Below are positions 4,178 through 35,123 of a DNA stretch of 64,000 bases, one piece after another (within the stretch, counting starts at the first letter, position 1; the number at the start of each line of letters is the position of its first letter). The stretch covers positions 62,001 to 126,000 of the forward strand of contig JAGVQM010000010.1 in the NCBI GenBank assembly GCA_020051695.1, written 5' to 3'. The stretch is from Candidatus Zixiibacteriota bacterium. Its GTDB lineage: Bacteria > Zixibacteria > MSB-5A5 > WJJR01 > JAJRUJ01. Position numbers and translations under genes: made by a program. The notes under the pieces were generated by a model. The model searched no databases and was not told the DNA's origin. It saw only the letters and a list, made by a program, of their open reading frames with translations.

Positions 4178-6379
4178 TTACCTGAACAATGACAGCACCA
4201 CCTGCGGAACCTGGTTGGCCTGAGCCAGCATCGAAGTACCGGCCTGCAACAATATCTGGTACCTGACAAACGTCGACATTTCGCTTGCCATATCCGTGTC
4301 TCTGATCGCGGATTCAGATGCTGTCAAGTTCTGCGCGGATATCCGCAAGTTGCGGAGGTTCGATTCCAGCGTATTTTTCTGGAAGGAACCGAGTTGGCCG
4401 CGGAGACTTGATACTTCAGAGATTGCTTCATCGATGACGGCCTGCGCGTCCTGGGCGCCGGTCACCGTCTGCACGTCAATCTGCGACAGACTGGTGTACA
4501 TATTACCGGCGATGTTCTTGCCCAGTTGGGTCGTGGTCATGTTGCGAATCCCTACCCGGGCCGTCTGACCGACATTGGCGCCGATTTGGAAAACGAGTGA
4601 CGAGTCGGTGTTGGAAAGCTGTTCCGACCCACCGTCGGAGGTCAGCGCGTAGTTGACTTTCAAATACTCGCTACGACCGGAATTCCAAATTAGCGTGTCG
4701 GTACCGGCGGTCACTTCTGTCTGCGGGCCGCCATCCAGACGGACCGAGAACTTCGCTGCATCAACGTCCAACAGCAGATCGCCGACATTGATGCCGTTGG
4801 CTGCGGTATTGATCGTGATATCAATGGTACCGCGGCCGACGGTCGTGGCATCGCCGGCCTTGTTTTCCAACGTCAAGTTGGTCGTCGCGTTGTACTTGAC
4901 GGACGTGATCTCGTTGGTGTAGCCGTCAAATGAAACCAAAGCGTTGGTGCCGGCGCGGGCCACGGTATCGGCGGCTGTAAAGCCCAGGATTTCTTCGGCT
5001 TCCGACGTCCCGGTGCCGTTGGAGTTCACCGCCATGTTGTAATCGCCGCCTTCGTCCGAAGTGATGAACTTCACCTTGTCCGTGCCGTCCACAGACGCGA
5101 CGACGTTGGCGACGGAACCAACGGCGACCAGCCCGAACGCATTGGTCAACGCCGTGTTGATATCAGTGACCAGATCGGTCATCGAAGCAAAAGTCTTGGT
5201 CGTCGTGGCCGAGACGATGTTCAACGAAGCCGTCGAACCCGAGAGGTTGGCCGTGGTGACCGTCATACTCACCACGTCTTTGGAGGCGCCACGCGTGGAG
5301 CGCGCGGTACCAAACGAAAATTGCGTGTTGTTGACCGCGGTGTTTGATTGGGAAACGAATTGCAGCGAGTACTTCGCACCGGCGTTGACCGGCCGGAAGT
5401 ACAACGTCCCGGACGCCGCGCCGACGCCGATCGAAACCGCTTCGATTTTGCCGTTGAGCGAGGCGTTGTTGGAGATCTGCGTGTTCCACTTGTCGGCGAC
5501 GGTTTGAATGGTATCGCCGTTCGCCACGGTGATGGTCAGCGTTTGCTGGCCGGTCGGATTGGAACCGACTTCAGCATAGTTGACCACCACTGTATAATCA
5601 CCGGCGTTGCCGGCGGTGGCGGTGCCGACCAGGGCCGCGGTGCCGATGGTGGCATAGGTCGCAGCGTCTGCCAGGGTCAGCTTGTTATTGAACGCATCCT
5701 GGAAATACACCGTGGTCCCGGTGCGGGTGGCGCCGGCCGAAGCCTGCAGGACGTTCACATTGTGCAAGCCGTCGGCAAGGTTGTACACCGTGCCACCGGT
5801 CTGCAGCGAAACCCCCAGCGAAGTGGAATTCAGCGTCGCCGAGGAATCGGCGGTCTTGGTGGCTACCACGGAGTGGACACCCGTGCTCAAACCCGATTCC
5901 TTGACCGTCATCTGGGACTGGTTAGCTGAAGTGATGGTCGCGTTGTTGTTGCGCGTGCCATCCAGCAGACTCTTGGTACCGAACTGCGTATTGCCGGCGA
6001 TACGGTCGATCGTGGCAATCGAGTTGTCGATTTCCGACTGGTCGGCAGCCAACTGGGTGGTATCGTTGAAACCTTCGTTGGCGGCGTGAATCGCCAGTTC
6101 GCGCATCTTGACCAACAGGTTGTTGATCTCGGTGAGCGCTCCCTCGGCGGTCTGGATCATGTTCATCGAACCTTCCGAGTTTTCGATCGCGCGGTTCAGA
6201 CCGGCAATCTGGGCCCGGAATTGTTCGCTGATCACCAGACCAGCGGGGTCATCGGAGGCGCGGTTGATCCGAAAACCTGACGACAGTTTTTCCATCGAAC
6301 CCGACAACGAGCGGGTGGTCATGGTCAGGTTGCGGTGAGCATCAAATGCCGCGATGTTGTGGTTGATTCGCAGAGACAT
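4178..6379 (-). CDS. fliC: Flagellin FliC, large
   Basis: This is the filament subunit. Residues 1-140 are the conserved D0/D1 helices (SLRINHNIAAFDAHRNL, LSSGFRINRASDDPAGL). The last 90 residues are the returning helices, ending in VVLSLFR. Between them about 480 residues form a large, Ser/Thr-rich surface domain with many Asn and a scatter of Tyr residues. The length (733) is well above the 270-500 usual for flagellins. Such a surface domain offers many O-linkage sites, fitting the adjacent glycosyltransferase and sulfotransferase island. It is read from a sigma-28-type promoter through a long leader with two hairpins, and its ribosome site is an exact AAGGAGG. Confidence 0.97.
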   Translation of the reverse strand: MSLRINHNIAAFDAHRNLTMTTRSLSGSMEKLSSGFRINRASDDPAGLVISEQFRAQIAGLNRAIENSEGSMNMIQTAEGALTEINNLLVKMRELAIHAANEGFNDTTQLAADQSEIDNSIATIDRIAGNTQFGTKSLLDGTRNNNATITSANQSQMTVKESGLSTGVHSVVATKTADSSATLNSTSLGVSLQTGGTVYNLADGLHNVNVLQASAGATRTGTTVYFQDAFNNKLTLADAATYATIGTAALVGTATAGNAGDYTVVVNYAEVGSNPTGQQTLTITVANGDTIQTVADKWNTQISNNASLNGKIEAVSIGVGAASGTLYFRPVNAGAKYSLQFVSQSNTAVNNTQFSFGTARSTRGASKDVVSMTVTTANLSGSTASLNIVSATTTKTFASMTDLVTDINTALTNAFGLVAVGSVANVVASVDGTDKVKFITSDEGGDYNMAVNSNGTGTSEAEEILGFTAADTVARAGTNALVSFDGYTNEITSVKYNATTNLTLENKAGDATTVGRGTIDITINTAANGINVGDLLLDVDAAKFSVRLDGGPQTEVTAGTDTLIWNSGRSEYLKVNYALTSDGGSEQLSNTDSSLVFQIGANVGQTARVGIRNMTTTQLGKNIAGNMYTSLSQIDVQTVTGAQDAQAVIDEAISEVSSLRGQLGSFQKNTLESNLRNLRISAQNLTASESAIRDTDMASEMSTFVRYQILLQAGTSMLAQANQVPQVVLSLFR

Positions 6380-6425: not shown

Positions 6426-6616
6426 CGGTCCGTCTTCCCTGAAAACCGACCTCCAATGGTCTAAAATCGGCATCCTGCCGGGATCCTGTCATGTGGCTTT
6501 CCCTGTCAGCCACTGGTGCTGCGTGTGGATTCACTCTCCTTTCCGCCTGCAAGGCCGTGTCAACGAAGATTGTGTCGTGTCCAAATCGTGTAGTTTTCCC
6601 TTTTTCCACTACTTGA

Positions 6617-6642
6617 ATCGGCAGGGCAAATGCCCCCCTTTA
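6617..6642 (-). promoter_or_regulatory. Sigma-28-type promoter for fliC
   Basis: On the minus strand TAAA (6642-6639) is followed after 16 bases by GCCGATTC (6622-6615). The sigma-28 consensus is TAAA-N15-GCCGATAA, so the -35 core and six of eight -10 positions match with one extra spacer base. Transcription would start near 6607 and give a leader of roughly 230 bases containing both GGA hairpins. FliA itself is encoded at 42581-43519. Confidence 0.6.
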
Positions 6643-6898: not shown

Positions 6899-6925
6899 TG
6901 AAGTCCGGCGGCCGCCGGCCGATAA
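6899..6925 (+). promoter_or_regulatory. Sigma-28 promoter for the APS kinase and sulfotransferase genes
   Basis: TGAAGTCC (6899-6906), an 11-base spacer and GCCGATAA (6918-6925) match the sigma-28 consensus TAAAGTTT-N11-GCCGATAA at 5 of 8, the exact spacer, and 8 of 8. It points at the plus-strand genes starting at 7047 and is back to back with the fliC promoter. This would place local PAPS synthesis and sulfation in the late flagellar regulon. Confidence 0.65.
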
Positions 6926-7046
6926 AACTAGAGCGGTATGCGCCACGGACGGCGTGGAACATCGGATTGATCCAGGGCCACAGTCCGGCGGGACACGGAA
7001 TTGTCCCAAAGTGGTCCTTGACCGACAGTTTGGGAGGAGCATCCTC

Positions 7047-7910
7047 ATGTCCCGCTTCAGAGGGAGTGTTGAACAACCCCATGCAGAGCAGTTTATTGTA
7101 GGTCGGGTTCCGAGTGAAGTCCCGCTACCGGCGGGACGTAACGAGAAACCCGACAGAGAAGCGTCGGCTTTCTCCGTTGCCGCCGTGGCGGGAACTCCGG
7201 AGACCAGCCTACACGTTTTTTCAACAAACCCCGGAATTTGGGACACCACTAGTGCGTCCCCGGCAGATAAAAACATTTTCAGTGCCGCCGCCGGTGTCGG
7301 CCGCGCAAAACGGGAAAAACAAAATGGACACCGCGCCCGGATCATCTGGCTTACCGGGTTGAGCGCTTCCGGGAAAACCACCATCGCCCGCGCGCTGGAA
7401 CAGCGGCTCTTTGAGCTGGGCTGCCATACCGCTGTCCTGGACGGCGATAACCTGCGTCATGGCCTGTGCGCCGACCTGGGCTTCTCACGTGAAGACCGGC
7501 AGGAAAATATCCGGCGGGTCGGGGAGGTCGCGCGGTTGTTCCTCGACACCGGTACGATCGCCATCAGCGCCTTCATTTCACCGTACGCCGCAGACCGGGA
7601 CAACATCAGGAAACACGTAGGGGACGGCGATTTCATCGAAGTATATGTAAAATGTTCGCTGGCCGAATGCGAACGGCGCGACCCGAAAGGTCTGTACCGA
7701 AAGGCACGCGCAGGTCTGATCACGGGATTTACCGGGTTGGACGACCCCTTTGAGCCGCCCGCAGCACCGGAACTGGTGCTTGATACCGAAGCATTGACTG
7801 TCAATGAAACAGTCAAGATTATCCTGGAATATTTGGACAACACCGGCGAGCCGTCCGGGAACATTGACGGCAATTGCAGCTCCGCTGTCTTAACAACAGA
7901 AACACTTTGA
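7047..7910 (+). CDS. cysC: Adenylylsulfate (APS) kinase CysC
   Basis: APS kinase phosphorylates APS to PAPS, the sulfate donor for sulfotransferases. The kinase domain covers about residues 99-275 and has the family motifs: P-loop GLSASGKTT, DGDNLRHGL, ENIRRVGEVARL, FISPY, PKGLYRKARAG and a DDPFEPP version of the usual DxPYExP. From the ATG at 7047, which has a good GGAGGA ribosome site, the protein is 287 residues. The first 95 residues are low-complexity and cross a palindromic repeat (7102-7154), so the true start may be later, although no other in-frame start has a ribosome site. It ends 8 bases before the sulfotransferase gene, an obvious two-gene unit. No ATP sulfurylase gene is seen here. 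Confidence 0.88.
   Translation: MSRFRGSVEQPHAEQFIVGRVPSEVPLPAGRNEKPDREASAFSVAAVAGTPETSLHVFSTNPGIWDTTSASPADKNIFSAAAGVGRAKREKQNGHRARIIWLTGLSASGKTTIARALEQRLFELGCHTAVLDGDNLRHGLCADLGFSREDRQENIRRVGEVARLFLDTGTIAISAFISPYAADRDNIRKHVGDGDFIEVYVKCSLAECERRDPKGLYRKARAGLITGFTGLDDPFEPPAAPELVLDTEALTVNETVKIILEYLDNTGEPSGNIDGNCSSAVLTTETL
7102..7154. repeat. Two-tier palindromic element inside the start of cysC
   Basis: An outer 8-bp inverted repeat (GTCGGGTT 7102-7109, AACCCGAC 7147-7154) encloses an inner 7-bp repeat (GTCCCGC 7119-7125, GCGGGAC 7131-7137) with a 5-base loop. Internal loops are 9 bases on each side. It has the look of a REP-like intergenic element, yet it lies in the open frame of the cysC N-terminal extension. 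Only one copy was noticed in this window. Confidence 0.6.
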
Positions 7911-7918
7911 GGTGACCC

Positions 7919-9994
7919 ATGAACCGTGCCCAGAGACGCGGAAAGCATAAACAGCGGAACACAACACAATCCGCCGCCCCGGCAATCGACGTGCAGCACT
8001 CGCTGCATGAGGCGTTCGCCGATTATCATGCCGGGCGCCGGCCTGCTGCTGCGCACAACTGCCGGATGGTTTTGGAGCAGGCGCCCGACCAGGTCGATGC
8101 GCTGCATCTGCTGGGGGTCATCACCAATGAGGACGGCAATCCCCGCGAGGCCGCCGGGCTGGTTTCACGAGCCATCACCCTCGACCCGGCACAACCGTCG
8201 TTTCATAACAGCATGGGTGTCATCCTGCGGTCACACGGGAAACTTGAGGAAGCGGCCACCTGCTATCGCACGGCGCTGAAGCTCGCTCCCGGTGATTCGG
8301 GCGCGATGAATAACCTGGCCAACACATTGCGTGACCAGGGGCGGTTGGCCGAGGCAGCAGACCAGTTGTCCCGTGCCCTGGAAATAAATCCGGCTGACGC
8401 TGCCACTCATTATAATATGGCCCTGGCGCTGGAGGACCTCGGCAAACTCGAAGACGCCGTCGTCAGCTATCGCCGGGCACTTGAATACGCTCCTGATGAT
8501 TCGAATACCATCGGCAATCTGGGACTGGTGTATTTGCTGCTGGGAAACCCGGCCGAAGCCCTGGTTTACTTTAACCGTTTGCTGGCCCTCGATCCGCAGG
8601 CCGCAGATACCCACAATAATATCGGCAATGCACATCGGCTGGCCGGGGACCTTGACCAGGCGACACTATCCTACCGCCGGGCCATCGCCTGCCAACCGCA
8701 GTATGCCGATGCGCACTTCAATCTGGGCCTCATTCAGCAGGAAGCCGGCGACCTGGAAGAAGCGATCGATTGCTACCAACACGCACTCGAACACAATGCC
8801 TTGATGGCCGCGGCCCACGTTGGTCTTGCCGAAATCTATGAAAAACAAAACCGACTGGACCGGCTGCCACACCACCTCACTGCCGCCATGCAGCTTGAAC
8901 CGGACAATGTGTCGGCCAACCGGCTGGCCGCCGTCATGTTGCGGCGAGAGGGAAAATACAAGGAAGCACTGCAAAAACTCTCGCGCCTGGCCTTGCCCGC
9001 CACGGAGGACCAAATAACAGAGAGTATCCATTTTGAACTCGGACGGCTCTATGACCTGGACCATCAAAGTGACCGGGCGATGCATCATTTTGCCGAGGGA
9101 AATCGGTTGCAGGTGCGAAACACCGACTCCCGCGTTGCCGACAAAGAACGCTACTTGGCCTGGATCAGACAACTGCGGGATTACTTTTCCCAGAACGGTG
9201 GTGCTTTCCACCCGCTCGCGTCGTGTTCGCCGGGTCTCAATACCCCGATGTTCCTAATTGGATTCCCCCGCTCCGGCACGACCCTGCTCGATCAGATTTT
9301 GGACAGCCACCCCCAAATCCAGGTCATGGAAGAAAAGCCAGCGCTGGAAAAAATCCTGCAGGATGTAGCCCGGAGGCTTGAGGGATACCCTCGCGCGCTG
9401 GCCGGTCTGAGCAACGACGACCGGGAACAGTTGCGCCTGCAATACTTCAGCATTGTGGAACAATCGCTGGTCCGGCGGCCGGACACGCTGCTGATCGACA
9501 AATTCCCCCTGAATATATGCCATGTCGGTCTGATCAACCGAATTTTCCCCGAGGCCCGGTTGATTCTGGCGCTCCGCCACCCCTATGATGTCTGCCTGAG
9601 TTGTTTCATGCAGTCGTTCGTGCTCAACGATGCCATGGCCAATTTTTCCACGATCGGGGACACGGCGGTCCTGTATGACGAAGTCATGCGTCTGTGGCAG
9701 CAAAGCGTCAGGATTTTTGCGCCGAATTTTCATAGCCTCCATTATGAATCACTCGTCGACGACTTCAGAGGCGAAGTGTCGTCTCTTTTGGAGTTCCTCG
9801 GTGTCGGATGGGATGACGCAGTGCTCAATTACACAACTCATGCCAAAACGCGGGGCTCAATCAATACGCCGAGTTATCAGCAGGTGACCGAGCCGGTCTA
9901 CCGGAGGGCGAAATACCGCTGGGAACGGTACCACTCATATCTGGAACCGGTCAAAGGGCTGTTGCATCAGCATGTGGAATACTTCGGCTATTGA
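7919..9994 (+). CDS. TPR-repeat sulfotransferase
   Basis: The 691-residue protein joins about nine to ten tetratricopeptide repeats (residues about 15-380) to a PAPS-dependent sulfotransferase domain (about 440-690). The 5-prime-phosphosulfate loop GFPRSGTTLL lies at about residue 448, a likely catalytic Glu in MEEKPAL follows, and the 3-prime-phosphate motif RHPYDVCLS is at about 553. Bacterial TPR-sulfotransferases resemble tyrosylprotein sulfotransferases, and their TPRs probably hold protein substrates. It starts 8 bases after cysC, which would supply its donor, and shares the sigma-28 promoter at 6899. No signal peptide is visible, so it should act in the cytoplasm before export. The target, flagellin tyrosines or flagellin glycan, is inferred from position. 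Confidence 0.88.
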   Translation: MNRAQRRGKHKQRNTTQSAAPAIDVQHSLHEAFADYHAGRRPAAAHNCRMVLEQAPDQVDALHLLGVITNEDGNPREAAGLVSRAITLDPAQPSFHNSMGVILRSHGKLEEAATCYRTALKLAPGDSGAMNNLANTLRDQGRLAEAADQLSRALEINPADAATHYNMALALEDLGKLEDAVVSYRRALEYAPDDSNTIGNLGLVYLLLGNPAEALVYFNRLLALDPQAADTHNNIGNAHRLAGDLDQATLSYRRAIACQPQYADAHFNLGLIQQEAGDLEEAIDCYQHALEHNALMAAAHVGLAEIYEKQNRLDRLPHHLTAAMQLEPDNVSANRLAAVMLRREGKYKEALQKLSRLALPATEDQITESIHFELGRLYDLDHQSDRAMHHFAEGNRLQVRNTDSRVADKERYLAWIRQLRDYFSQNGGAFHPLASCSPGLNTPMFLIGFPRSGTTLLDQILDSHPQIQVMEEKPALEKILQDVARRLEGYPRALAGLSNDDREQLRLQYFSIVEQSLVRRPDTLLIDKFPLNICHVGLINRIFPEARLILALRHPYDVCLSCFMQSFVLNDAMANFSTIGDTAVLYDEVMRLWQQSVRIFAPNFHSLHYESLVDDFRGEVSSLLEFLGVGWDDAVLNYTTHAKTRGSINTPSYQQVTEPVYRRAKYRWERYHSYLEPVKGLLHQHVEYFGY

Positions 9995-10308
9995 ACCGGG
10001 TCGCTCCGGCTGCCCTAAAATGTATAGGGACCGGCCTATAACTCAAGTCAAGTCGAGGGCGTAACCTCCGATATTATATACAGAACCGGCCTAGGACGGC
10101 CGGATTATTGGAACCGGCCGAGCCGGCTTTCGGCGGCACTGGCCGCCTGCCGCAGCGTCCGGGAGAAGACAATGGACTGTCGGTATAGTGGTACTGCATT
10201 CGGTGTATGGAGCCCTCCGCAGTCCCCAGTATCACATCCAAGTGATCAGTGTCCGCCTGCCGTGGCGGTACAACTATCGACGACTAACGCCCGAAGCGGA
10301 GAATGACT
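9995..10308 (+). other. Intergenic region with three stem-loops
   Basis: No gene is seen in these 314 bases. There are three small perfect inverted repeats: TATAGG/CCTATA (10023-10028, 10035-10040), CCGGCC/GGCCGG (10086-10091, 10098-10103) and CCGGC/GCCGG (10114-10118, 10122-10126). The last is followed by CTTTC and could be a weak terminator for the sulfotransferase unit. A sigma-28-like promoter is at 10048-10074. Confidence 0.5.
10048..10074 (+). promoter_or_regulatory. Possible sigma-28 promoter for the five-domain gene
   Basis: TCAAGTCG (10048-10055), an exact 11-base spacer and TCCGATAT (10067-10074) match the sigma-28 consensus at 5 of 8 and 6 of 8. The leader to the ATG at 10309 would be about 230 bases. 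The AT-rich run at 10071-10080 could equally serve another sigma factor, so confidence is low. Confidence 0.35.
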
Positions 10309-13300
10309 ATGTCGATTGATCCTGCAATACAATCAACAACAACGCAACAACCGAATACTCGGATATTGCTGAGCGGGCCGTTTGGTACCGGCCGGGTTGC
10401 CGGTGATTTGTTGTTGGAGGGGTTTTTGCAGTTATTCCGGGCTCATGAATATTTCCGGGATTACGAACCGGCTGCAATTTCGGACAATCCTGAACAAACC
10501 GCCAAAAATTTCGACATAACCACAATCCCCAACGACCTCGAATCGATCGCTCAAGCCCTCGCCGGGGGATCTGTCATGTTATCGATCGGTGAGACGTTCA
10601 CCGACGCCGACCAGCAAAAGACCGGGAAAACGACCGGTTCGCTCAAGCGATTGCTGGCTGGAATCATCGCCGGACGGCCGACCGGCGTGATCGGGGCGGG
10701 AATCGAACCGCCGGCGATGACCGGTATTGCCGCATTCTTCGCCGAAATCATGGCCCGGGTCGACATGTTCACCGTCCGCGACCAGGCCTCGGCCATCGCG
10801 GCGGCCCGCTCCGGACTGACCGCGCCGGCACCGACCACTGCCAATCCAACATTCGGGCTCCCGCTGTCATCGAATCAACGCCCGGCAACGGGGCGGCTGG
10901 GACTCGATGTATGCGGCTTGACGAATGTCGATGATAGGATTTCAGCGGAACTCATCTCCGCGATGAACCACCTCACCGCCCAGACCGGCCTGCACCCGGT
11001 CCTCTTCGCTGAAGAGCAAACCATCAATGATCAGAGCATCATCCATTTGCGCCAAAGTATAGACGGTGCCGAAGTCGTCCCCTTGACCGGACCGCCGACC
11101 GCGATGCTGGATGCGCTGGGGACGGTCGATCTGCTGTTAGGCACGCAATACCATACGATCGTCGGCGCCGCAAGCCGCGCCGTCCCCGCTGTAGCCCTTT
11201 GTTTCGACCCGGCAGTGCACGGACTGGCACCGCAACTGCGGCTGGGAAATTATGCGCTGAGTCCCGACCGATTCCAGGCCCCGCAAATTGTTCGCGCGGC
11301 GCTGCAATTATGGAATAATCGCGCGCGGGTCGTCCCGGCACTGGCAATGGCCTACGCAACCCGGGCCAAACTGGCCGGCGAAAACCTCGAGCACGTCAAA
11401 CACATGCTTTCTGTAACGCCTGACGTGCGGATTGCAGAATGTGACCTCAATGAGTTTGCCGCCGATTCGAGGACCCACGTCGGCGAAGTCCTGGAGGTCA
11501 CGAACAAATTTTTGTCCGCATCCCGGCGGCACGCGGCAGCCGATGTCCCCGCAACGGCCCGGGAAACAATTGAGCACAAACCTCTCCCCGCCGACCCGTT
11601 GGTCACGATCTACATCTGCGCCTACAACGCCGCGCCATGGATCGAGCAGGCCTTGTCCAGCGCGATAAACCAGACCTATCGCCATCTGGAAATTTTAGTC
11701 GTAGATGACGGCTCAACCGATGATACTGTCGCCAGGGTCCAGGCCTGTGATGACCCACGAATCAGTCTGCATCAAATCAAGCACGGCGGGATCGCCCGGG
11801 CGCGCACGTATGCCAAAGAACATTTCCGTGGTGATTTGATTGTCTGCCTCGATGCCGATGACTGGCTGGCGCCGGAACTGATTGCCAAAGAGGTCGCTCT
11901 CCTGCAGGAGCACCCTGAAATTGATGTCACCTATTGCGACCGTTACCTGGTCGATGAGCACGGGACACCGACCGGCGAAGTCTGGAATTATACCGATTAC
12001 CCGGAACCACGCCGGTTGCTCGGGGACATGTTCACCGGCGGACGGGGCCGCATCCCCAATGGTTCGATGATGGAACGTGCCGAGGTCGCCCGCGCAGTCG
12101 GCGCATACAACTCCGAACTGGCCACAACTGAAGATTTCGATTACGCCGCCCGGCTGGCCATAGTTGCGCGGTCGTTCCGCGGGATCAGCGAACCGCTGTA
12201 TTTCTATCGCAGCTTCATGTCCGGCGCCAGCGGCAAATGGGACGAACGTAATGAGGTCGTCACCCGGGTCTGGCGGGAAATGTGGGAACGGCATGGCGGC
12301 GAGTATCTCCTCGGCGAAGAACCGGGGCGCGGCCTGGCCGGAAAACAAAAGGAAGCCGCTTATTTATGCCGGGCGGGAGATATCGCCTGCCGGCACGGCG
12401 AGGCATACATCGTCAGCGGCGCTTCCCGGCATTTCTTTGCCTGTGCCTGCGAATTTTATGTCAAAGCGCTGGCCCTCGAACCCTATAATTATACTGCCGG
12501 ATCGCAGGTGATGAAACTGGCGGCAGCCGGGCATCTGAACCTGAAAAGCGAAACCGGCGCGGGGACCAATAAACACTCGCCGCAACTGGACACATTTTAC
12601 GCCAATCAGCCGCTCCTGGATGTGTTGTATGAACATGCAATCCCTGAACTGCTGGCCCGGGGCCGCGAGACAATTACCATCACCGTGTGGCAGGCCGGGA
12701 CGGGCTGCGAAGCGTACACGATCATCATCGAGGCGCTGCGCCGTGGTGTGCCCCCGGAAAAACTGCGCATGCGGGCTTATGATTCCCGCCCGGAAAAAAT
12801 CGAACAAGCCCGCGCCGGCGTGTATACCGACAGCGAATTGTTTAACCGGGGGCGCAGCCATTTCTCGCAAACCCTCGCCGATCGCTATTTTGAAAAGCAG
12901 GCCGACGGCAGATATCGGGTGCGGGAGGAGGTCGCCCGGCAGGTAACCTGGCACAAGGGCGATATCACCAAAAGTGACGGGATCGATCCCGCAGAGAAAT
13001 CGGACATAGTCTTCGCTTCCTCGCTCTGGGAGGCCATCGACACGCCGACGGCGGGGACCGCATTGGCGAACCTCACGGCGAATGTCCACGCGGACGGATA
13101 TCTATTCCTCGGCGGCTTCTATCCGTCGCGCAATGCCGCGCTGGCCGAATTGCGCAAGCTCGAACCTGTCCGGGAACGGTTCGAGGACATTCACGACGGT
13201 TGGCGCTACCGCCGGGGCGCCTATGGGAGCCGCCCGTACGGCCTCGAACCACTGGACCGCCGCTATCAGGAATGGCCCTGGCGTTACGGTTGTGCGTTTC

Positions 13301-15306
13301 GCCTCCGTGAAGTGAAACAACTTGATTACAAAGCGCCGAACTTACTCAAGGAATACTGGACCGAGCGGGGCCGAGTTTACAAATGGCAGTATCCGGCATT
13401 GCCGCTCAAAGACCTGCCGGTGCCCCAGCGCATGGTCGAAATGCTGCAGGATGAACAACCGGGCAGCGTGCTGGATTACGGCTGTGGCTTCGGCACGATC
13501 CTGCGGGAAGTCCGGGCGGTACTCCCCACGGCGCAGTTGATCGGCCTGGATATCTCGCGTACTGTGTTATTCGAAGGTTACAAATACATGCTGGACGGCA
13601 CACCCGTGGGGCTGGTCGAATCCGACGGCAAAACAGTGCCTTTCCCCGACAACAGTTTTGCCGCCACGTTTACCCACGTGACATTGATCCATGTCCCACA
13701 CGAGGAAATACGCGGTGTGTTGGCGGAAATGGTGCGGGTCACCCATGACACATTGTATATCGGGGAGTCGGCATACAAAGAGCATGAACAGTTTTATTAC
13801 TTCGCCCACGATTATCCGGCGTTATTCGCTGAAATAAATTTAGTCGCCGAGGAAATTGAGATAACCGATGCGCACAAACAACCCGGTACGCGGTTGTTCC
13901 GGATTGATGTCCGCCGGAAAGCAACCCGGTCTCAGGAAGCGGGCCGCGGACAAACGTCGTTTGCTGTTTCGCCGGCCGCAGTGTCCCCCAGACGACGGCT
14001 GCTGATCGTTTCCGACCGCCGTTCGGTCCATACGCGCCGCTTCTGCCGGTTTTTCCGCGAGCAGGGACATGATGTGCAATTATTCGATGGAGGGACCGAT
14101 TGGGAGGGGCTGGAAGGCATTGTCCAGCATGCCCCCGATCCGGTGCGATTCCCCGAAGGAGATGCCGACCGCCAGTTGTATTCGCGCGTAGCCCGCCTGC
14201 GGGAGATAATCACCGCGATGAAACCCGACTGGGTCCACGGTCATTACCTCATCGGCTGGGGCTGGTGGGCGGCACTGGCCGCCGGTGATACACCGCTGGC
14301 GCTGACCGCCTGGGGGTCGGATGTGTTCATGCTCCCCGAGGAACAATCCCATACGCGCAATATGACGCGCTGGGCGTTGCAGCTGGCCGACCGGGTGACC
14401 GCCGATTCTACAGCACTCGCCCAGGCGGCCGAACAACTGGCCGGAGACGGACGACAGGTCATGCTGGTCCCGTTCGGCGTCGATACCGAGGCCTTTCGGC
14501 CCGGCGCAGATCCCACGGCCCTCCGGCGGCGGTTGATGATCCCGGACGATGCCCGCGTGATTCTCAGCCCGCGGCAGATCAAACCCGGAACGAATATCCA
14601 GTTTATCATTGACGCCTTCCAGCAAATTGCTGCCGGGGAACCCCGCGCGCTGCTGCTTTTGAAAACATATTTGACGACATTCGAGAAGCAATCGGCGTTC
14701 ATGAACCTGATCCGCACCAAGCTCACGGAAACTGATTTGTGGGGCCGGGTGCGCATCGTCCATGACCTGCCGCCGGAACAAATCCCGGCACTGTATGCGC
14801 TGGCCGAAGTCACGATCAGCGTCCGCGACACCGACGGGACACCGTGCACGCTGTTCGAATCCTGCGCTACGGGCACGCCGGTCATCGCCGGTGACATCCC
14901 CAGTCTATCCGAATGGATCACGCATGAGGAAAACGGACTGCTGGTCCCGACCCGCAATGCCGACGCCATTGCCCAGGCCATCAGACAGGTATTCGCCGGC
15001 GGCCCGGAGATCGAACACATCAAGAGCACCGTGCGGGATTTCGCCCTTTCCCATGGCGATTATCGCCGCTGTTTCTCCCGCATCGAAGAGCTTTATTGCG
15101 CTCCGGCCCCCGGCAAACATGCACGATGCCGGACAACCACGATGCAAACACTTGCGGAAATGCGGGGACAAATGTGCGCGGCAATCGACCGGGGCGAATT
15201 CGACAAGGGGTTTGAAATATTTCAGACCATAAACAGACTGGTCGCCGGGGCCGACTTCGGCGCCGCAATTGAATACCGGACCGAGGAAATGCTGCAGCCG
15301 GCGTAA
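10309..15306 (+). CDS. Five-domain protein: pyruvyltransferase, GT2, CheR-like methyltransferase, methyltransferase, GT4
   Basis: This 1665-residue protein has five enzyme-like domains in one uninterrupted frame. Residues about 15-340 resemble polysaccharide pyruvyl transferases (GPFGTGRVAGDLLLEG near the start, LLLGTQYHTIVGA near 280). Residues 428-640 are a GT-A family 2 glycosyltransferase (VTIYICAYNAAPW, VDDGSTDDT, LDADDWL). Residues 758-940 follow the CheR methyltransferase pattern (ITITVWQAGTGCEAYT, then Y-D-S-R, A-R-A-G-V-Y and a YF...Y.V segment) but with a shortened SAM loop. Residues 1053-1200 are a class I methyltransferase (VLDYGCGFGTIL). Residues 1228-1600 are a GT-B family 4 transferase (FGVDTEAF, TPCTLFESCATGTPVIA). 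The ATG at 10309 is preferred over the one at 10303 because of GGAG spacing. It probably builds and trims a flagellin glycan; its sugar donors and order of action cannot be read. Confidence 0.85.
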   Translation: MSIDPAIQSTTTQQPNTRILLSGPFGTGRVAGDLLLEGFLQLFRAHEYFRDYEPAAISDNPEQTAKNFDITTIPNDLESIAQALAGGSVMLSIGETFTDADQQKTGKTTGSLKRLLAGIIAGRPTGVIGAGIEPPAMTGIAAFFAEIMARVDMFTVRDQASAIAAARSGLTAPAPTTANPTFGLPLSSNQRPATGRLGLDVCGLTNVDDRISAELISAMNHLTAQTGLHPVLFAEEQTINDQSIIHLRQSIDGAEVVPLTGPPTAMLDALGTVDLLLGTQYHTIVGAASRAVPAVALCFDPAVHGLAPQLRLGNYALSPDRFQAPQIVRAALQLWNNRARVVPALAMAYATRAKLAGENLEHVKHMLSVTPDVRIAECDLNEFAADSRTHVGEVLEVTNKFLSASRRHAAADVPATARETIEHKPLPADPLVTIYICAYNAAPWIEQALSSAINQTYRHLEILVVDDGSTDDTVARVQACDDPRISLHQIKHGGIARARTYAKEHFRGDLIVCLDADDWLAPELIAKEVALLQEHPEIDVTYCDRYLVDEHGTPTGEVWNYTDYPEPRRLLGDMFTGGRGRIPNGSMMERAEVARAVGAYNSELATTEDFDYAARLAIVARSFRGISEPLYFYRSFMSGASGKWDERNEVVTRVWREMWERHGGEYLLGEEPGRGLAGKQKEAAYLCRAGDIACRHGEAYIVSGASRHFFACACEFYVKALALEPYNYTAGSQVMKLAAAGHLNLKSETGAGTNKHSPQLDTFYANQPLLDVLYEHAIPELLARGRETITITVWQAGTGCEAYTIIIEALRRGVPPEKLRMRAYDSRPEKIEQARAGVYTDSELFNRGRSHFSQTLADRYFEKQADGRYRVREEVARQVTWHKGDITKSDGIDPAEKSDIVFASSLWEAIDTPTAGTALANLTANVHADGYLFLGGFYPSRNAALAELRKLEPVRERFEDIHDGWRYRRGAYGSRPYGLEPLDRRYQEWPWRYGCAFRLREVKQLDYKAPNLLKEYWTERGRVYKWQYPALPLKDLPVPQRMVEMLQDEQPGSVLDYGCGFGTILREVRAVLPTAQLIGLDISRTVLFEGYKYMLDGTPVGLVESDGKTVPFPDNSFAATFTHVTLIHVPHEEIRGVLAEMVRVTHDTLYIGESAYKEHEQFYYFAHDYPALFAEINLVAEEIEITDAHKQPGTRLFRIDVRRKATRSQEAGRGQTSFAVSPAAVSPRRRLLIVSDRRSVHTRRFCRFFREQGHDVQLFDGGTDWEGLEGIVQHAPDPVRFPEGDADRQLYSRVARLREIITAMKPDWVHGHYLIGWGWWAALAAGDTPLALTAWGSDVFMLPEEQSHTRNMTRWALQLADRVTADSTALAQAAEQLAGDGRQVMLVPFGVDTEAFRPGADPTALRRRLMIPDDARVILSPRQIKPGTNIQFIIDAFQQIAAGEPRALLLLKTYLTTFEKQSAFMNLIRTKLTETDLWGRVRIVHDLPPEQIPALYALAEVTISVRDTDGTPCTLFESCATGTPVIAGDIPSLSEWITHEENGLLVPTRNADAIAQAIRQVFAGGPEIEHIKSTVRDFALSHGDYRRCFSRIEELYCAPAPGKHARCRTTTMQTLAEMRGQMCAAIDRGEFDKGFEIFQTINRLVAGADFGAAIEYRTEEMLQPA

Positions 15307-15536: not shown

Positions 15537-17228
15537 ATGAACGTACTGGGAATCTCGTGCTATTATCACGATGCTGCGGCGTGCCTGGTGCATGACGGTG
15601 AAATCGTTGCCGCCGCCGAAGAGGAACGTTTTACCCGGAAAAAACACGATAACCGTTTTCCGCGCCGGGCCATCGATTACTGTCTGACCGCGGGCGGGAT
15701 CACGGCCCGGCAGATCGATATCGTTTGTTTTTATGAAAAACCACTGCTGAAGTTGGAACGCATCCTGGAAACAGGCAGCCGGCGGCCGGAGGAATCGGCG
15801 GAACTAGTCAGCCGGCAACTGGCGCAAACGCTGCACGAGCGATTGTTCATCCCGGATGTCTTGCGTGAAGTCATCGGGTACCGGGGCCGGGTGGTCTATA
15901 CCGACCACCACCTGGCGCACGCTGCTTCGGCATATTATCCCTCGGGATTTTCCGAGGCCGCGATTTTGACCGTGGACGGTGTCGGCGAAAAAGCCACTAC
16001 CGCCCAGTTCAGCGGCAGGAATGGCCGGATCACCAAACTGCGGGAAATCGAATATCCTCATTCTCTGGGCTTGTTGTACAGCACGTTGACAGCGTTTCTG
16101 GGCTTCAAAGTCAACAACGACGAATATAAAGTAATGGGGCTGGCCTCGTACGGCACAGTGCGCCATGCCGATAAAATCCGGAAACTGATCACGGTCATCC
16201 CGGACGGCAGTTTCCGGCTGAATCTGGATTATTTCAGTTTTATGTCCGATCCGAACCGCATGTATGCCGACGCCATGATCGAGTTGCTCGGTCCGCCGCG
16301 TTTGCCCGGGGATAGTATCTCCGGTTATCATAAAGACCTTGCCGCATCGCTGCAGGCGGTCGTGCAGGAGACCATGGTGCACCTGGCCGGCTCGTTGTAC
16401 GACCAATGCGGCCGGGTGGAGAACCTCTGTCTTGCCGGTGGCGTCGGGCTTAATTGTGTGGCCAATTCACAATTGCAGAAGCACACGCCGTTCAAGCGGA
16501 TTTTTATCCAGCCGGCAGCCGGCGACGGCGGGTGTGCGCTCGGCGCGGCGTTATATGCTTCCCACGCCCTGCAATGTCTCCCGCAGGAACAACGGCGACA
16601 TTCATCCCTGTACGGTCCGGAATACAGCAACGATGAAATCCGTAATTTCCTGCAAAGCCGCGGCGCGGAATTCACTGTATATGACGAAGACGGCATCTGC
16701 GCCGCAACGGCCAAATTAATTGCGGAAAACCAGATTATTGGCTGGTTTCAGGGTCGCATGGAATTCGGGCCCCGCGCACTGGGCAACCGCAGTATCCTGG
16801 CCAATCCCCGCAATCCCGAAATGCAGGACATCCTGAACCGCCGGGTCAAATTCCGTGAGGATTTTCGGCCGTTCGCCCCGGCGGTGCCGGCCGAACGGGC
16901 GGCGGAGTATTTCGAGGTCATCGGCGAAAGCCCGTTCATGTTGTTCACCACGACGGTCGTCCCGGCCCGGGAACGGGAAATCCCCGCGGTCACTCATGTG
17001 GATCATACGGCCCGTGTTCAAACCGTCAGTAAAGCCGATAATCCGCGTTTTTATCATTTGATCGAACATGTCGACAGACTCACCGGCGTTCCAGTAGTGG
17101 TCAATACCTCGTTTAATATTCGCGGGGAACCGATCGTCTGCTCAATGGAAGATGCCTACAATTGCTTTTTGAAAACCGACATCGACTACCTGGTTATGGG
17201 CAATTGTCTGGTGGAGAAGGAATTTTAG
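15537..17228 (+). CDS. NodU/CmcH-family O-carbamoyltransferase
   Basis: This family uses carbamoyl phosphate and ATP to carbamoylate sugar or antibiotic hydroxyls. The N-terminal Kae1-like domain starts MNVLGISCYYHDAAACLV and carries the metal-binding DHHLAHAASAYY near residue 122, then VDGVGE. The C-terminal domain has WFQGRMEFGPRALGNRS (about 402-418) and the FREDFRPFAPAV segment typical of NodU and TobZ. The length (563) is normal. The ATG at 15537 follows GAGG. It sits between two 59-residue genes in the island and probably adds a carbamoyl group to the flagellin-linked sugar. Confidence 0.92.
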   Translation: MNVLGISCYYHDAAACLVHDGEIVAAAEEERFTRKKHDNRFPRRAIDYCLTAGGITARQIDIVCFYEKPLLKLERILETGSRRPEESAELVSRQLAQTLHERLFIPDVLREVIGYRGRVVYTDHHLAHAASAYYPSGFSEAAILTVDGVGEKATTAQFSGRNGRITKLREIEYPHSLGLLYSTLTAFLGFKVNNDEYKVMGLASYGTVRHADKIRKLITVIPDGSFRLNLDYFSFMSDPNRMYADAMIELLGPPRLPGDSISGYHKDLAASLQAVVQETMVHLAGSLYDQCGRVENLCLAGGVGLNCVANSQLQKHTPFKRIFIQPAAGDGGCALGAALYASHALQCLPQEQRRHSSLYGPEYSNDEIRNFLQSRGAEFTVYDEDGICAATAKLIAENQIIGWFQGRMEFGPRALGNRSILANPRNPEMQDILNRRVKFREDFRPFAPAVPAERAAEYFEVIGESPFMLFTTTVVPAREREIPAVTHVDHTARVQTVSKADNPRFYHLIEHVDRLTGVPVVVNTSFNIRGEPIVCSMEDAYNCFLKTDIDYLVMGNCLVEKEF

Positions 17229-17425: not shown

Positions 17426-19270
17426 ATGACTTTCTGCCTGACCCGCAATTACCGGCACACCCGGCAGAAACCGCCGGGACTATTTCGGGTGCTGTGTATC
17501 GGCGACTCGCAGACGTTCGGCGCGGGAGTATTTATTCAAGAGGCGCTCCCCGCCCGGCTGGAGCCGCTGCTGAACCGCGCCGCCTGGAATAAACAGGTGG
17601 AGGTCGTCAATGACGGCGTCTCCGGGTATGCACTGTATGATGAATGGCACCATTACATTTTGCGCAGCCATCATTATGAGCCGGACCTCCTGCTCATCAT
17701 CCTTTCCGAAAACGACGCGGAATTGTTCAGTTCCCAATGCGGTCCCGGCGGTCCCGGCCCCTACGAGGAACATATCCGCCGCTGCTGGGACACCCATTCG
17801 ATCCACCTGCCGCATTTCCGCCGGGTGTTTCAGGAAATCCGCGCCCAATTGGATGAAAAGCCGCTGCCGGTCATCGTGGTTTATTATCAGGTATACGGCA
17901 GCCCGCACCGCGAACAGCGCGGCGCAATCATCCGGCAGGAGTGCGAGAAAAACGGGCTGGACTTTGTCGATTTATCCGCGGAATTTTCCCAGGGGCCGGC
18001 CGAGGCCTACGATCCGAAGCTGATGGTCAGCGCCGCTGATTTTCATCCCTCTGCGGCAGCCCATCAAATGGCCGCGCAGAAACTGGCCCGGCATATCGTC
18101 CGGGGTGGTTATCTCGGTGAAGTCGCAGCGCCGCCCCTCCCCGAACCGGAAGTCTACAGGCGATTATTGGAAAACGCTGAACACCTGCGGCGGGCAGGCG
18201 GCCGCCCGGATTTCATTCTCAATTCTTTAGACCAACTGCTCACCGTCAAGCGCACCAGCAAGAATCGGATCAAGCTTCCGGCGGAATCGTTGATGAACGA
18301 CCGGGAATTTTCAGTTTTACAGCAGAATGTCCGCGCGCTGGCCGGACGCGGTGATATTGCGCTGTCACTCGAAGGGGCAAACTACGCGCTCCGGCAAAAT
18401 GCCGAGATGTTCCACCGGGGACGGAATACCGCGGCGGAACTGGTCAATTTATTATCCAAACAGTTGTTTGTGCTGGAAAACAGACTGGACGATCCGGGAC
18501 TTTGGAATTTTGCCTATGAGTCGGGACCGGATTCGCCACAACCACCGCCCCGGCCGGCAACATCTGCCGACCAGTTTCACTCCTGGCTGGTCCGGGCCGG
18601 CGCGGCCCGCGAAGCGCTCAAACAGGGTTTTGCGGCTGATTGCAGTAAGTTGCCGGGTTTTGCTGCCGCTCTCGCCCATCGTTTTGAACAGGCAAGTACG
18701 AGTAACCTCGAATATCTGCAGCACGGCGAAGAGATGATCAGTTCCTGGTTGAATCTTTACGCGTATTATCAATCACTGCGGGTACGGCATGAAACCCAGG
18801 CCTCACAGCCAACATTGCACGTCGCGTTTACTGCGCTGGCCGCAGAACTGGTCCGGCTGGCCGTGTTGATCGACAAGACAGCCGGGATGACACACCCGGA
18901 TATCATCCCGCGCATATTCTCCCGGCAGACACCACTCGAGGCGTTGTATTGTGCGGTGAAAATGAGTTCCACGGCCCCGGTGGCTACTACAATCGGCGTG
19001 CAATGGCAATCGTTCGTACCGGAGTTCCAACCGATGTATGACGTGCACTACCTGGTCCGGGACGGACAGCCGCATACGTACCGTTTTTGTCTGCCGTTGT
19101 CGGTGGCCGGACAACTTAAACTGGTGGTCTGCCCGCCGACAGAGGTGGAGTTGGCTGCAGTGGAATGTTATGTGGATGAAGATCGGCCGGTCTGCCTGTC
19201 TAATGCCGCACAGCACATCAGCAACGGCCAGCTGTGGATCAGTTTTCCCGATTTTGTTTCGCTATTCTAA
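17426..19270 (+). CDS. SGNH/GDSL-type hydrolase or acyltransferase with long C-terminal region
   Basis: Residues about 20-240 form an SGNH domain. Block I is GDSQTFGAG with the nucleophile Ser near residue 31, block II is NDGVSGYA, block III is ILSEND in place of GxND, and block V is ADFHPSAAAH with the catalytic Asp and His. Such enzymes add or remove acyl groups on glycans. Residues 250-614 are not recognised: a helical part, then a strand-rich end that could bind sugar. No signal peptide or membrane helix is clear, so it should be cytoplasmic. It is the last gene of the plus-strand arm and converges on the next gene with a 15-base gap and no visible terminator. Confidence 0.8.
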   Translation: MTFCLTRNYRHTRQKPPGLFRVLCIGDSQTFGAGVFIQEALPARLEPLLNRAAWNKQVEVVNDGVSGYALYDEWHHYILRSHHYEPDLLLIILSENDAELFSSQCGPGGPGPYEEHIRRCWDTHSIHLPHFRRVFQEIRAQLDEKPLPVIVVYYQVYGSPHREQRGAIIRQECEKNGLDFVDLSAEFSQGPAEAYDPKLMVSAADFHPSAAAHQMAAQKLARHIVRGGYLGEVAAPPLPEPEVYRRLLENAEHLRRAGGRPDFILNSLDQLLTVKRTSKNRIKLPAESLMNDREFSVLQQNVRALAGRGDIALSLEGANYALRQNAEMFHRGRNTAAELVNLLSKQLFVLENRLDDPGLWNFAYESGPDSPQPPPRPATSADQFHSWLVRAGAAREALKQGFAADCSKLPGFAAALAHRFEQASTSNLEYLQHGEEMISSWLNLYAYYQSLRVRHETQASQPTLHVAFTALAAELVRLAVLIDKTAGMTHPDIIPRIFSRQTPLEALYCAVKMSSTAPVATTIGVQWQSFVPEFQPMYDVHYLVRDGQPHTYRFCLPLSVAGQLKLVVCPPTEVELAAVECYVDEDRPVCLSNAAQHISNGQLWISFPDFVSLF

Positions 19271-19285
19271 ATAGACAACGCCGGT

Positions 19286-21442
19286 TCAGGCCCGGACCAG
19301 CCGGCCCTCGGCTTCGGCTTTCGCCTCCTGAAACTGCTTTTGCTGCACCAGGTGTTCGCGAATCTCGCGCAACCGTTCCAGCGTGGGCTGATGTTCCGGA
19401 TCGATTTTCAGCGCTTTTTGATACCCCATCAATGCCGCATCAAGACAGCCCTGGCTGTGGTAGCAGTCGGCCAGCCGCGTCCAAACGTCGGCCCGTACCG
19501 GACCGGCGGCCACCACGCTTTCATAACAGGTGATCGCCGCCTGCAGATCATCCAACCGGCAATACAGATCACCGAGGAATCCCTTGACGGCAACATCATC
19601 ATTGTGCCGTTGGACATATTCCGCCAGGGCCACACAGGCATCATCAATTCGTTCCAACCGGGCCAGGGAGATGCCCCAGTTCCGCAGAGCTTCGCCGAAT
19701 TCCGGAGCCAGCCCCGCCGCCCGGCGGTATAATTCCTCGGCAGCGGCATAATCGCCCTGGTGGAAACGGCAATTCCCCAGGTTGTTCAATAACCGGCAGT
19801 CAGCGGGCAGCTCATTCAAACAGCGTTCGTAATCCAGGGCGGCGGCCGGATAATCCTCTAGATCGAAATAAATGTCGCCGCGCAGCCGGTACCCCTCGCT
19901 GAACCCGGGATCGAAGCGCAACATGCGGCTGATATATTCCAGGGCCTGCTGCCGGCCGCCGCGTTCCTGTTCGATGATGGCCAGACGGTAACAGGCAATG
20001 GTGTTGGCTTCGCTTAACTCCAGCGCCCGGTGCAGGTGGGTTTCCGCCGCGCGGATATTGCCTTGCCGGTGCAGCACCTCCCCCAGGAATACATGACATT
20101 TGCCGTCGGTGGGAACAAGCTCCAGCTGCCGCTCCCAGTGACGGCGGGCCTGGTCATATTCCCCGAGCTGATAATACATCAAACCCAGCCGATAATGCGC
20201 ATCCAGATAGTCGTCCCGTTCGCCGAGGCATTTTTCGTACCAGCCCGCCGCCTCGGCGTGTTTATCTTCCATCTGGGCCACCAGGCCCAGGCCGTAATAC
20301 GCATTATGGCGGCTGTGCAAATGCATCAGGATTATGTATTCGGTCTGTGCGTGTTCGTCGTAGTGCAGCTGCCGGTCGAGATACTCCAGATAGTATTTGC
20401 GGGCAAGCTCGAGTTGCCGGGTGGAGGAATAGATGTGCCCCAGACTCAACAATGGATCCAGATAATCCGGCAGCAGCGACAACGCATAGTGGCACCATTT
20501 TTCCGCGTTTTTATAATCGCCCTTGTTGAAGTATGCGGTGACCAGCTGATGCGAACCCATCAAATGGATATGGCGTTCACCGGGTTTGTGCGGGTCGGAA
20601 AGCTCGACCGCCCGGCCGGCATGATACACCACGCGTTCCATCTGGTCGGCCGTGGGCACGTCCTGTTCGCCCCGGAGGATCTGGGCCATGTTAAAATGGG
20701 CGAAGCCGTAATCCGGATTTTCCTCGAGTTGCTGCAGCAGCATCGATTTGGTCCGTTCGACTTTTTTCGCCATTTTTTCTTTACTGAGGCCGTAGCCGTA
20801 ATGGCAAAATCGCACGGGGGAGCGCAGGACTTCTTCGTTCTCCGGCAACCGCAGCATATTGTGCACGATGCCTTCGTAGCGGGCCATTGTCTCGCGGCGG
20901 AAAAAGCGGACGGACGGTAAAAACGAGGTGTACAGCGCCTCGCCCTGGGAATAGTTGTATACCGAAATCGACAGCGCTCGGTATTCAGTAGTATACAAGG
21001 TCTTTTTCAACGCCGGGAGGTCTTCGGCGACCAGCTCCTCGTCGGCGTCGATAATGCAAATCCAGTCGCCGGTACAGTATTCGATCGAAACGTTCCGCGC
21101 CGCCGAAAAATCATTGCGCCATTCAAAATGATAAATCCGAGCGCCATATGACCTGGCGATTTCCACGGTCCGGTCGGTCGACCCGGTATCGACAATAACG
21201 ATTTCATCGGCCAGGTCTTTGATACTGCCCAGACAGTTGGCCAGCAGTTCCTCTTCATTTTTAACGATCATACAAACCGACACGGTCGGATGATCGGGAT
21301 AGGGAAGGGCCGCTGTCTGCTCTTGTGGATGTTGCGGCGAACTGCGCTTGTGCCTGACTGGCGGGGGGACCGGCGTGCCGTCGGCCTTGCGCACCACGCG
21401 GCTGCGCGTGGGGCTTTTTTTTGCTTTGCGTCGGGTAGTCAT
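19286..21442 (-). CDS. GT2 glycosyltransferase with C-terminal TPR array
   Basis: Residues about 50-285 are a family 2 glycosyltransferase of the SunS/beta-1,4-glucosyltransferase type: VSVCMIVKNEEELLANCL, IVDTGSTDRT, then the DADEE metal motif near residue 130. Residues 290-700 are a long run of TPRs (about a dozen). The first 45 residues are basic and disordered. GT2-TPR fusions are common in flagellin and peptide glycosylation, with the TPRs gripping the protein acceptor. It is 18 bases downstream of the next glycosyltransferase gene and forms a minus-strand pair with it. A role in putting the first sugar on flagellin is plausible but not shown. Confidence 0.87.
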   Translation of the reverse strand: MTTRRKAKKSPTRSRVVRKADGTPVPPPVRHKRSSPQHPQEQTAALPYPDHPTVSVCMIVKNEEELLANCLGSIKDLADEIVIVDTGSTDRTVEIARSYGARIYHFEWRNDFSAARNVSIEYCTGDWICIIDADEELVAEDLPALKKTLYTTEYRALSISVYNYSQGEALYTSFLPSVRFFRRETMARYEGIVHNMLRLPENEEVLRSPVRFCHYGYGLSKEKMAKKVERTKSMLLQQLEENPDYGFAHFNMAQILRGEQDVPTADQMERVVYHAGRAVELSDPHKPGERHIHLMGSHQLVTAYFNKGDYKNAEKWCHYALSLLPDYLDPLLSLGHIYSSTRQLELARKYYLEYLDRQLHYDEHAQTEYIILMHLHSRHNAYYGLGLVAQMEDKHAEAAGWYEKCLGERDDYLDAHYRLGLMYYQLGEYDQARRHWERQLELVPTDGKCHVFLGEVLHRQGNIRAAETHLHRALELSEANTIACYRLAIIEQERGGRQQALEYISRMLRFDPGFSEGYRLRGDIYFDLEDYPAAALDYERCLNELPADCRLLNNLGNCRFHQGDYAAAEELYRRAAGLAPEFGEALRNWGISLARLERIDDACVALAEYVQRHNDDVAVKGFLGDLYCRLDDLQAAITCYESVVAAGPVRADVWTRLADCYHSQGCLDAALMGYQKALKIDPEHQPTLERLREIREHLVQQKQFQEAKAEAEGRLVRA

Positions 21443-23993: not shown

Positions 23994-24494
23994 TTACCCA
24001 GACATCATTTTTGTCGCCGATGCACTTACCGTGCTTTCACCGGCGCCGCCAAGCTGCGGCAGCAACGGATGGGTGGTGGAGTATGGTCCGTTGACCAGCA
24101 CCAATTGTTTGGCCAGATTATTCTTCGTGCAAATCACCACCGGCCCCTGGAGGTTGACGCTCATGCGCGACATATCGCCGTCGGGCACGGAAACAATGAC
24201 ATACGTCATGACCGAACCCGGATCGGACAACTCCAATTCACTAAGCTCACGCGGATCGACATCGATGCGATAATCGGCAAAAAAGACCAGGGGGTTGACG
24301 ATCACAAACGCCAGCGCCGGATCATCGAGCGACTGGAACCATTTAAACGGTTCGCTGTCGGGTGTCTCGATAATGACGAAGCTCCGGGAACTTTCGAAAC
24401 CCAGCAAACCCTTCGGGACAGCAATAATCAGCCGGGTGTCGACGGTGATTTCACCAAACCGCACGGTTTTGAGCTGTACCTGCTTTCCGGGCAT
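23994..24494 (-). CDS. fliW: Flagellar assembly factor FliW
   Basis: FliW binds newly made flagellin and, when free, binds CsrA and relieves its block on flagellin translation. The family pattern is clear: TVRFGEITVDTRLIIAVPKGLLGFE near the N-terminus, PFKWFQSLDDPALAFVIVNP at about residues 55-75, and VICTKNNLAKQLVLVNGPYS near the C-terminus. From the ATG at 24494, which has AAGGA, the product is 166 residues, close to the usual 140-160. Upstream TTG or GTG starts up to 24569 would add 25 residues without family support. It follows flgL by 82 bases and shares an operon with csrA. Confidence 0.93.
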   Translation of the reverse strand: MPGKQVQLKTVRFGEITVDTRLIIAVPKGLLGFESSRSFVIIETPDSEPFKWFQSLDDPALAFVIVNPLVFFADYRIDVDPRELSELELSDPGSVMTYVIVSVPDGDMSRMSVNLQGPVVICTKNNLAKQLVLVNGPYSTTHPLLPQLGGAGESTVSASATKMMSG

Positions 24495-24576
24495 TGGCCG
24501 GTCCTTTCCCGGGGGGCATGTATTCACCGGTTGGTGCTTAATGGTCGCCGCTGTGCTGATCACAACCAATTCCTTC

Positions 24577-27004: not shown

Positions 27005-27017
27005 CCACCCTCCGTGG
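27005..27017 (-). promoter_or_regulatory. csrA ribosome site in a GGA-loop hairpin (possible self-regulation)
   Basis: The 13 bases directly before the csrA ATG read CCAC-GGAGG-GTGG on the minus strand: a 4-bp stem whose loop is the ribosome site and contains GGA. This shape would let CsrA repress its own translation, as is known for csrA in Escherichia coli. The stem is short, so it is a suggestion only. Confidence 0.45.
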
Positions 27018-27025
27018 CAATCCAT

Positions 27026-35065: not shown

Positions 35066-35091
35066 TGATAAAAACGTAAGCGGTATTCGGG

Positions 35092-35111: not shown

Positions 35112-35123
35112 ATTGAGGAGAAA

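Follow-up and report, generated by a model that had tools for sequence, protein, structure and literature searches.

A sulfate-activating and sulfate-transferring gene pair divergent from fliC in a Zixibacteria genome, and its possible role in flagellin sulfation

Glycosylation and methylation are known modifications of bacterial flagellins. A stretch of 64,000 nt from a Candidatus Zixiibacteriota bacterium, in the following called the window (C12:62001-126000 of a genome of 3.53 Mb that is 98.9% complete), raises the question of whether flagellin may also be sulfated. In this window cysC, the gene for an adenosine 5′-phosphosulfate (APS) kinase, and the gene for a sulfotransferase with tetratricopeptide repeats (TPRs) lie divergent from the flagellin gene fliC. 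A previous reading of the same DNA, made from the sequence alone (the sequence-only reading), had described this arrangement, which we confirmed, and had proposed that flagellin is the target. Our analysis characterizes the locus as real, coherent, and unusual, and flagellin sulfation as a well-placed hypothesis: if a glycan and a tyrosine as acceptor are taken jointly, we regard sulfation of flagellin as moderately probable. The central features are the following:

4178-6379, minus strand: fliC, flagellin, 733 aa (flagellin models, PF00669), which would be the acceptor or carry it.
7047-7910, plus strand: cysC, APS kinase, 287 aa as read (PF01583 and NCBIfam; kinase motifs aligned with relatives).
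7919-9994, plus strand: TPR-sulfotransferase, 691 aa (PF13469 plus TPRs).
9245-9817, plus strand: sulfotransferase domain PF13469 of this protein (residues 443-633), TPST-like, with human TPST2/TPST1 as best PDB matches.

Profile searches bore out the identities that had been proposed for both proteins. CysC matches PF01583 over the full length of the model and above the cut-off (E=3e-65), the NCBIfam model for adenylyl-sulfate kinase yields 270 bits at a cut-off of 163, and the alignment with relatives shows intact catalytic motifs. The start codon was corrected to the ATG at 7047, which is preceded by a good Shine-Dalgarno motif, GGGAGGAG. The gap of 8 bases to the next gene was recovered as described (cysC stop at 7910, next ATG at 7919). 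The product of that gene combines TPRs with a PF13469 match above the cut-off (E=4e-38). The closest PDB matches of its sulfotransferase domain are human TPST2 and TPST1 (E about 1e-14), and the residues aligned to R78, E99, K158, and S285 of TPST2, which we take to be the catalytic set, are identical (numbering derived from the alignment). Both features place the protein among the 3′-phosphoadenosine 5′-phosphosulfate (PAPS)-dependent sulfotransferases of PF13469. The equivalent positions are also retained in relatives from Paroceanicella, Comamonas, Kluyvera, Thalassospira, and Azospirillum. Structure prediction without an alignment modelled a TPR superhelix confidently (about residues 22-345) and the sulfotransferase domain with a confidence of <50. 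A weak similarity to NoeE was found in the window, with a match below the cut-off, and a scan of species genomes retrieved distant relatives only, with the similarity residing chiefly in the TPR part.

The inventory of the genome supports the earlier view that cysC is a dedicated donor gene. The genome encodes one APS kinase, i.e. CysC, and one sulfotransferase of the families PF13469/PF00685, i.e. the TPR-sulfotransferase of the window (other sulfotransferase families were not searched), and no PF01507 reductase was found in the 98.9% of the genome that is represented, so that, as far as these searches show, PAPS made by CysC would have a single user, the product of the neighbouring gene. The only PF01747 ATP sulfurylase is encoded on contig 14 (L027:6530-12250), where its gene forms a run with aprB and aprA and qmoC is close by, a setting that resembles those of dissimilatory sulfate or sulfur metabolism; given this location, the APS used by CysC probably comes from the respiratory pool. 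Among 132 genomes of the phylum, PF13469 is present in 12, a strong APS kinase in 18, and both in 10. Thus, 10 of the 12 sulfotransferase genomes contain an APS kinase, compared to 18 of 132 overall (Fisher p=8e-9, not corrected for kinship).

The genes between fliC and flgL indicate the process in which the pair might be involved:

10303-15306, plus strand: fusion protein of 1667 aa, with pyruvyltransferase-like, GT2, CheR-type and other methyltransferase, and GT4/GT1 parts in one chain (Pfam).
15537-17228, plus strand: NodU-like carbamoyltransferase (PF02543/PF16861; NodU model below its cut-off).
17426-19270, plus strand: GDSL/SGNH esterase-like protein (PF13472).
19286-21442, minus strand: TPR-GT2 glycosyltransferase a (PF00535 plus TPR; order relatives 45-55% identical; position kept in the order).
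21461-23884, minus strand: TPR-GT2 glycosyltransferase b (PF00535 plus TPR; order relatives 29-40% identical; position kept in the order).
23994-24569, minus strand: fliW (PF02623).
24577-26493, minus strand: flgL (flagellin N/C and hook IN domains; named from domains and place).

Together with cysC and the TPR-sulfotransferase gene, the genes for the fusion protein, the NodU-like protein, and the GDSL-type protein form an island of five genes divergent from fliC. Flagellin loci were read in four relatives from the same order, one of them from the same family (G124) and three others (G128, G129, and G130). In all four, fliC adjoins relatives of both TPR-glycosyltransferase genes, and the stretch that was read extends to flgL in three of them (G124, G128, and G130). 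From the fliC start to the first TPR-glycosyltransferase gene, the distance is 12,906 bp in the window, where the interval contains the five island genes, versus 526 bp in G124, and among the loci read the cysC island occupies this interval in the present genome only. Because the order relatives keep the interval between fliC and the TPR-glycosyltransferase genes without the island, its position identifies the surroundings of the pair as a flagellin-modification locus.

Since the pair sits among genes for glycan decoration, we tentatively favour, over tyrosine, a TPR-guided cytoplasmic sulfation of the flagellin O-glycan, although we place this particular form somewhat below even chances. The TPR-guided model is borrowed from a precedent: FlmG of Caulobacter is a flagellin O-glycosyltransferase composed of TPRs and a GT-B domain, and its interaction with flagellin was assayed by two-hybrid (PMC7591256). 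Both enzymes have an N-terminal TPR arm and a C-terminal transferase, and FlmG acts on flagellins in the cytoplasm, as is predicted here for the window enzyme. In contrast, FlmG moves a sugar, and the window enzyme is predicted to move sulfate from PAPS. In the proposed pathway Sat would convert sulfate to APS, mainly for the AprAB respiratory pathway, and CysC would convert part of this APS to PAPS. The TPR arm would bind flagellin in the cytoplasm, and the sulfotransferase would transfer sulfate onto the O-glycan that the TPR-glycosyltransferases of the locus had placed on flagellin. The island enzymes that transfer methyl and carbamoyl groups would act alongside, and the exported filament would bear negatively charged sulfate esters.

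Several observations weigh against this proposal, and the first group concerns the distribution of the genes. The sequence-only reading had suggested a search for cysC and the TPR-sulfotransferase gene next to fliC in other genomes; none of the other 131 phylum genomes yielded the exact unit, and a PF13469 match was present in none of the eight other genomes of the order. Partial parallels were retrieved from one phylum member (G114), Paroceanicella, and Comamonas. In G114 (L092:9607-11826), cysC, a gene for a TPR-less sulfotransferase, and then a methyltransferase gene point towards the end of a fliC-fliD cluster that is read in the opposite direction, an arrangement that may be due to chance. 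Three members of the class (G094, G080, and G083) carry an APS kinase gene near the gene for a TPR-less sulfotransferase and have no flagellar neighbours. The setting of such pairs thus varies, and they need not be flagellar. The sequence-only reading had named the occurrence of the pair far from flagellar genes in close relatives as a counter-argument; these three genomes are not close relatives. They do lend some credit to the view that the whole island, including cysC and the sulfotransferase gene, serves another surface polymer, e.g. a capsule, lipopolysaccharide, or exopolysaccharide, and that its flagellar location is incidental. The island genes encode generic glycan enzymes, as would be expected in that case. 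However, the island occupies an interval between fliC and the TPR-glycosyltransferase genes that is conserved in the order, the window enzyme is of a different, TPR-bearing type, and no flippase or polymerase domain was found among the island genes with Pfam. We thus consider another polymer as the target to be unlikely.

The second group of observations concerns the expression and integrity of cysC, for which the following features are relevant:

6899-6925, plus strand: sigma-28-like site before cysC, TGAAGTCC-N11-GCCGATAA (perfect -10; chance 0.0003 per 300 nt).
6615-6642, minus strand: sigma-28-like site of fliC, TAAAGGGG-N12-GCCGATTC (TAAAG, N12).
About 7067-7231, no strand assigned: dispersed repeat within the cysC frame (16 further partial matches with E<1e-4 elsewhere in the genome).
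26672-27025, minus strand: csrA (PF02599), with a sigma-28-like site upstream at 27083-27056.
27102-28502, minus strand: flgK (PF22638).
42581-43519, minus strand: FliA/WhiG-type sigma factor (TIGR02479, 269.5 bits, cut-off 189.6).

The back-to-back sites that had been reported upstream of cysC (6899-6925, plus strand) and fliC (6642-6615, minus strand) are both present. The cysC site matches 12 of 13 positions (TAAAG plus GCCGATAA), and an equally good site in the 300 nt upstream of cysC occurs in 0.03% of Markov-1 sequences, a value that ignores that several upstream regions were examined. The best fliC and csrA sites in the order have TAAAG and a spacing of 12 bases, and TAAAG with N12 is also found upstream of fliC in all four order relatives that were read. 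In contrast, the cysC site has TGAAG and a spacing of 11 bases. No instance of the exact consensus TAAAGTTT-N10-12-GCCGATAA occurs in the 64-kb window. The exact pattern TAAAGN14-15KCCGATW has four sites in the genome, including those upstream of fliC and csrA; it is close to background genome-wide, because a control with the reversed pattern also yields four. The -10 alone proves little, because GCCGATAA is common here (12 instances in the window versus 2.3 expected). Of the claim that cysC has a sigma-28 promoter, the perfect -10 and the presence of a FliA-type sigma factor gene could be retained, whereas the -35 is off consensus and the spacing is one base short. The promoter is plausible and unproven, and if it is active, sulfate donor, sulfotransferase, and flagellin would be co-expressed at a late flagellar stage. 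A second, short flagellin (255 aa) is encoded on C14 (L103:7833-8600), distant from the flagellar cluster, and no sigma-28-like site was found upstream of its gene.

Read from the ATG at 7047, CysC exceeds most relatives by about 60 residues at its N-terminus, and much of this extension is read-through of the dispersed repeat, which contains an inverted repeat at 7102-7154 (71.7%). The repeat in this extra part, together with the TGAAG -35 and the 11-base spacing instead of the TAAAG and 12 bases typical of the order, could indicate that the pathway is weak or decaying and little expressed. Nevertheless, the frame stays open through the repeat, the ATG retains its Shine-Dalgarno motif, and the catalytic motifs of both CysC and the sulfotransferase are intact, so a weak or decaying pathway appears to be very unlikely.

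A third group of observations derives from TPR-sulfotransferase genes on plasmids; most of it speaks for the proposal, and one part of it, which concerns the acceptor, speaks against the glycan form. A tblastn search against annotated plasmids retrieved 22 loci (L110-L128, L130-L132), 21 of which are annotated. In 14 of these 21, the sulfotransferase gene is located within about two genes of a gene for an exported or surface protein; the loci were sorted by our own reading, several are from related strains, and the number has no background rate for random genes with which it could be compared. The neighbours encode autotransporters (Kluyvera, Thalassospira, two Azospirillum, and Pacificitalea), TonB-dependent receptors (Asticcacaulis, two Pseudoalteromonas, and two Novosphingobium), a type I system with a calcium-binding protein (Sulfitobacter), a porin (Cereibacter), a cadherin-domain protein with a type I secretion system (Comamonas), or flagellin (Paroceanicella). 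A plasmid of Comamonas endophytica (L121:1-12382) carries, consecutively on one strand, genes for a giant cadherin-domain protein, a TPR-sulfotransferase, and TolC/ABC/HlyD components, as well as cysC. The closest parallel outside the phylum is a plasmid of the alphaproteobacterium Paroceanicella profunda (L133:1-425 and 34282-37292), on which a TPR-sulfotransferase gene is divergent from a flagellin gene inside a flagellar cluster and forms an independent pair of the same kind. A second sulfotransferase gene ("family 2") is located at the opposite end of that cluster. The 48 kb of the Paroceanicella cluster that were viewed contain no annotated glycosyltransferase gene, which agrees better with sulfation of the protein itself than with sulfation of a glycan.

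The main rival to the glycan form is a tyrosine of flagellin as acceptor, with the enzyme acting as a TPR-guided bacterial tyrosylprotein sulfotransferase. Besides the Paroceanicella cluster and the exported proteins encoded next to the other relatives, the nearest solved structures, TPST2 and TPST1, and the conservation of their catalytic set argue for it, and the TPR arm suggests a protein partner. FliC has 14 Tyr, mostly in the variable middle region, and 161 Ser/Thr. However, the number of Tyr does not follow the presence of the enzyme, because the Paroceanicella flagellin has one and the flagellins of order relatives that lack the sulfotransferase have 9-13 (that of G124 read in part). 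PF13469-like enzymes also take other acceptors, and polyketide-synthase sulfotransferases such as CurM are among the same PDB matches. In view of these points and of the glycan-decoration genes around the pair in the window, we rate tyrosine as rather unlikely, and the O-glycan remains the acceptor that we prefer. Taken together, the interpretation of the sequence-only reading holds in part: it gains from the dedicated donor, the modification locus, and the Paroceanicella parallel, and loses from the unclean promoter, the repeat in cysC, and the absence of the triple from the other phylum genomes searched.

The plasmid loci also raise a more general possibility, which we consider to be somewhat doubtful. 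TPR-sulfotransferases might be a general cytoplasmic class that sulfates exported surface proteins encoded next to them, with autotransporters, TonB-dependent receptors, type I adhesins, and, here and in Paroceanicella, flagellin as partners. Bacteria would then possess a protein-sulfation system with flagellin sulfation as one of its branches.

Three known systems resemble parts of the locus. In the decoration of Nod factors, the carbamoyltransferase NodU, the sulfotransferases NodH/NoeE, and the donor genes NodPQ are involved. Genes for a sulfate donor, a sulfotransferase, and a carbamoyltransferase thus occur together for glycan decoration in both cases, but Nod factors are lipo-oligosaccharides rather than flagellin, and the NodU and NoeE matches of the window are below the cut-offs. 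RaxST of Xanthomonas is the tyrosyl-protein sulfotransferase of the exported peptide RaxX, the raxX/raxST control region is divergent, and the system is an example of bacterial sulfation of an exported peptide whose gene neighbours that of the enzyme (PMC8872720). As in the window, where flagellin is the proposed substrate, the sulfotransferase gene is next to that of an exported substrate. In contrast to the window enzyme, which adjoins flagellin and has TPRs and a neighbouring APS kinase gene, RaxST acts on a small peptide secreted by a type I system. The rax system has its own PAPS genes, raxP/raxQ. In Halobacterium salinarum, Agl30/Agl31 are involved in adding sulfate to the N-glycan carried by archaellins, among other glycoproteins (PMC11980604, PMC11239922). 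As is predicted for the window, a swimming filament there bears a sulfated glycan. The archaeal glycan, however, is N-linked, and Agl30/Agl31 are annotated alkaline-phosphatase-domain proteins of an N-glycosylation cluster, not PF13469 proteins with TPRs. The sequence-only reading was not aware of a described bacterial case with a dedicated PAPS-making gene in the late flagellar regulon. Searches of one open-access library yielded sulfated swimming filaments from archaea only and no sulfated bacterial flagellin; subscription journals, which these searches may not have reached, could contain one.

In Halobacterium, a truncated sulfated glycan leads to bundled filaments (PMC11239922), and deletion of a single sulfotransferase alters motility slightly at most (PMC11980604). 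With a donor gene that apparently has a single use in the genome, the pathway proposed here would be unusually easy to test, and Paroceanicella profunda D4M1, which is recorded as grown in culture, offers a testable strain. If flagellin is indeed sulfated, the filament would have an acidic surface, with possible consequences for bundling, adhesion, phage binding, and immune recognition.

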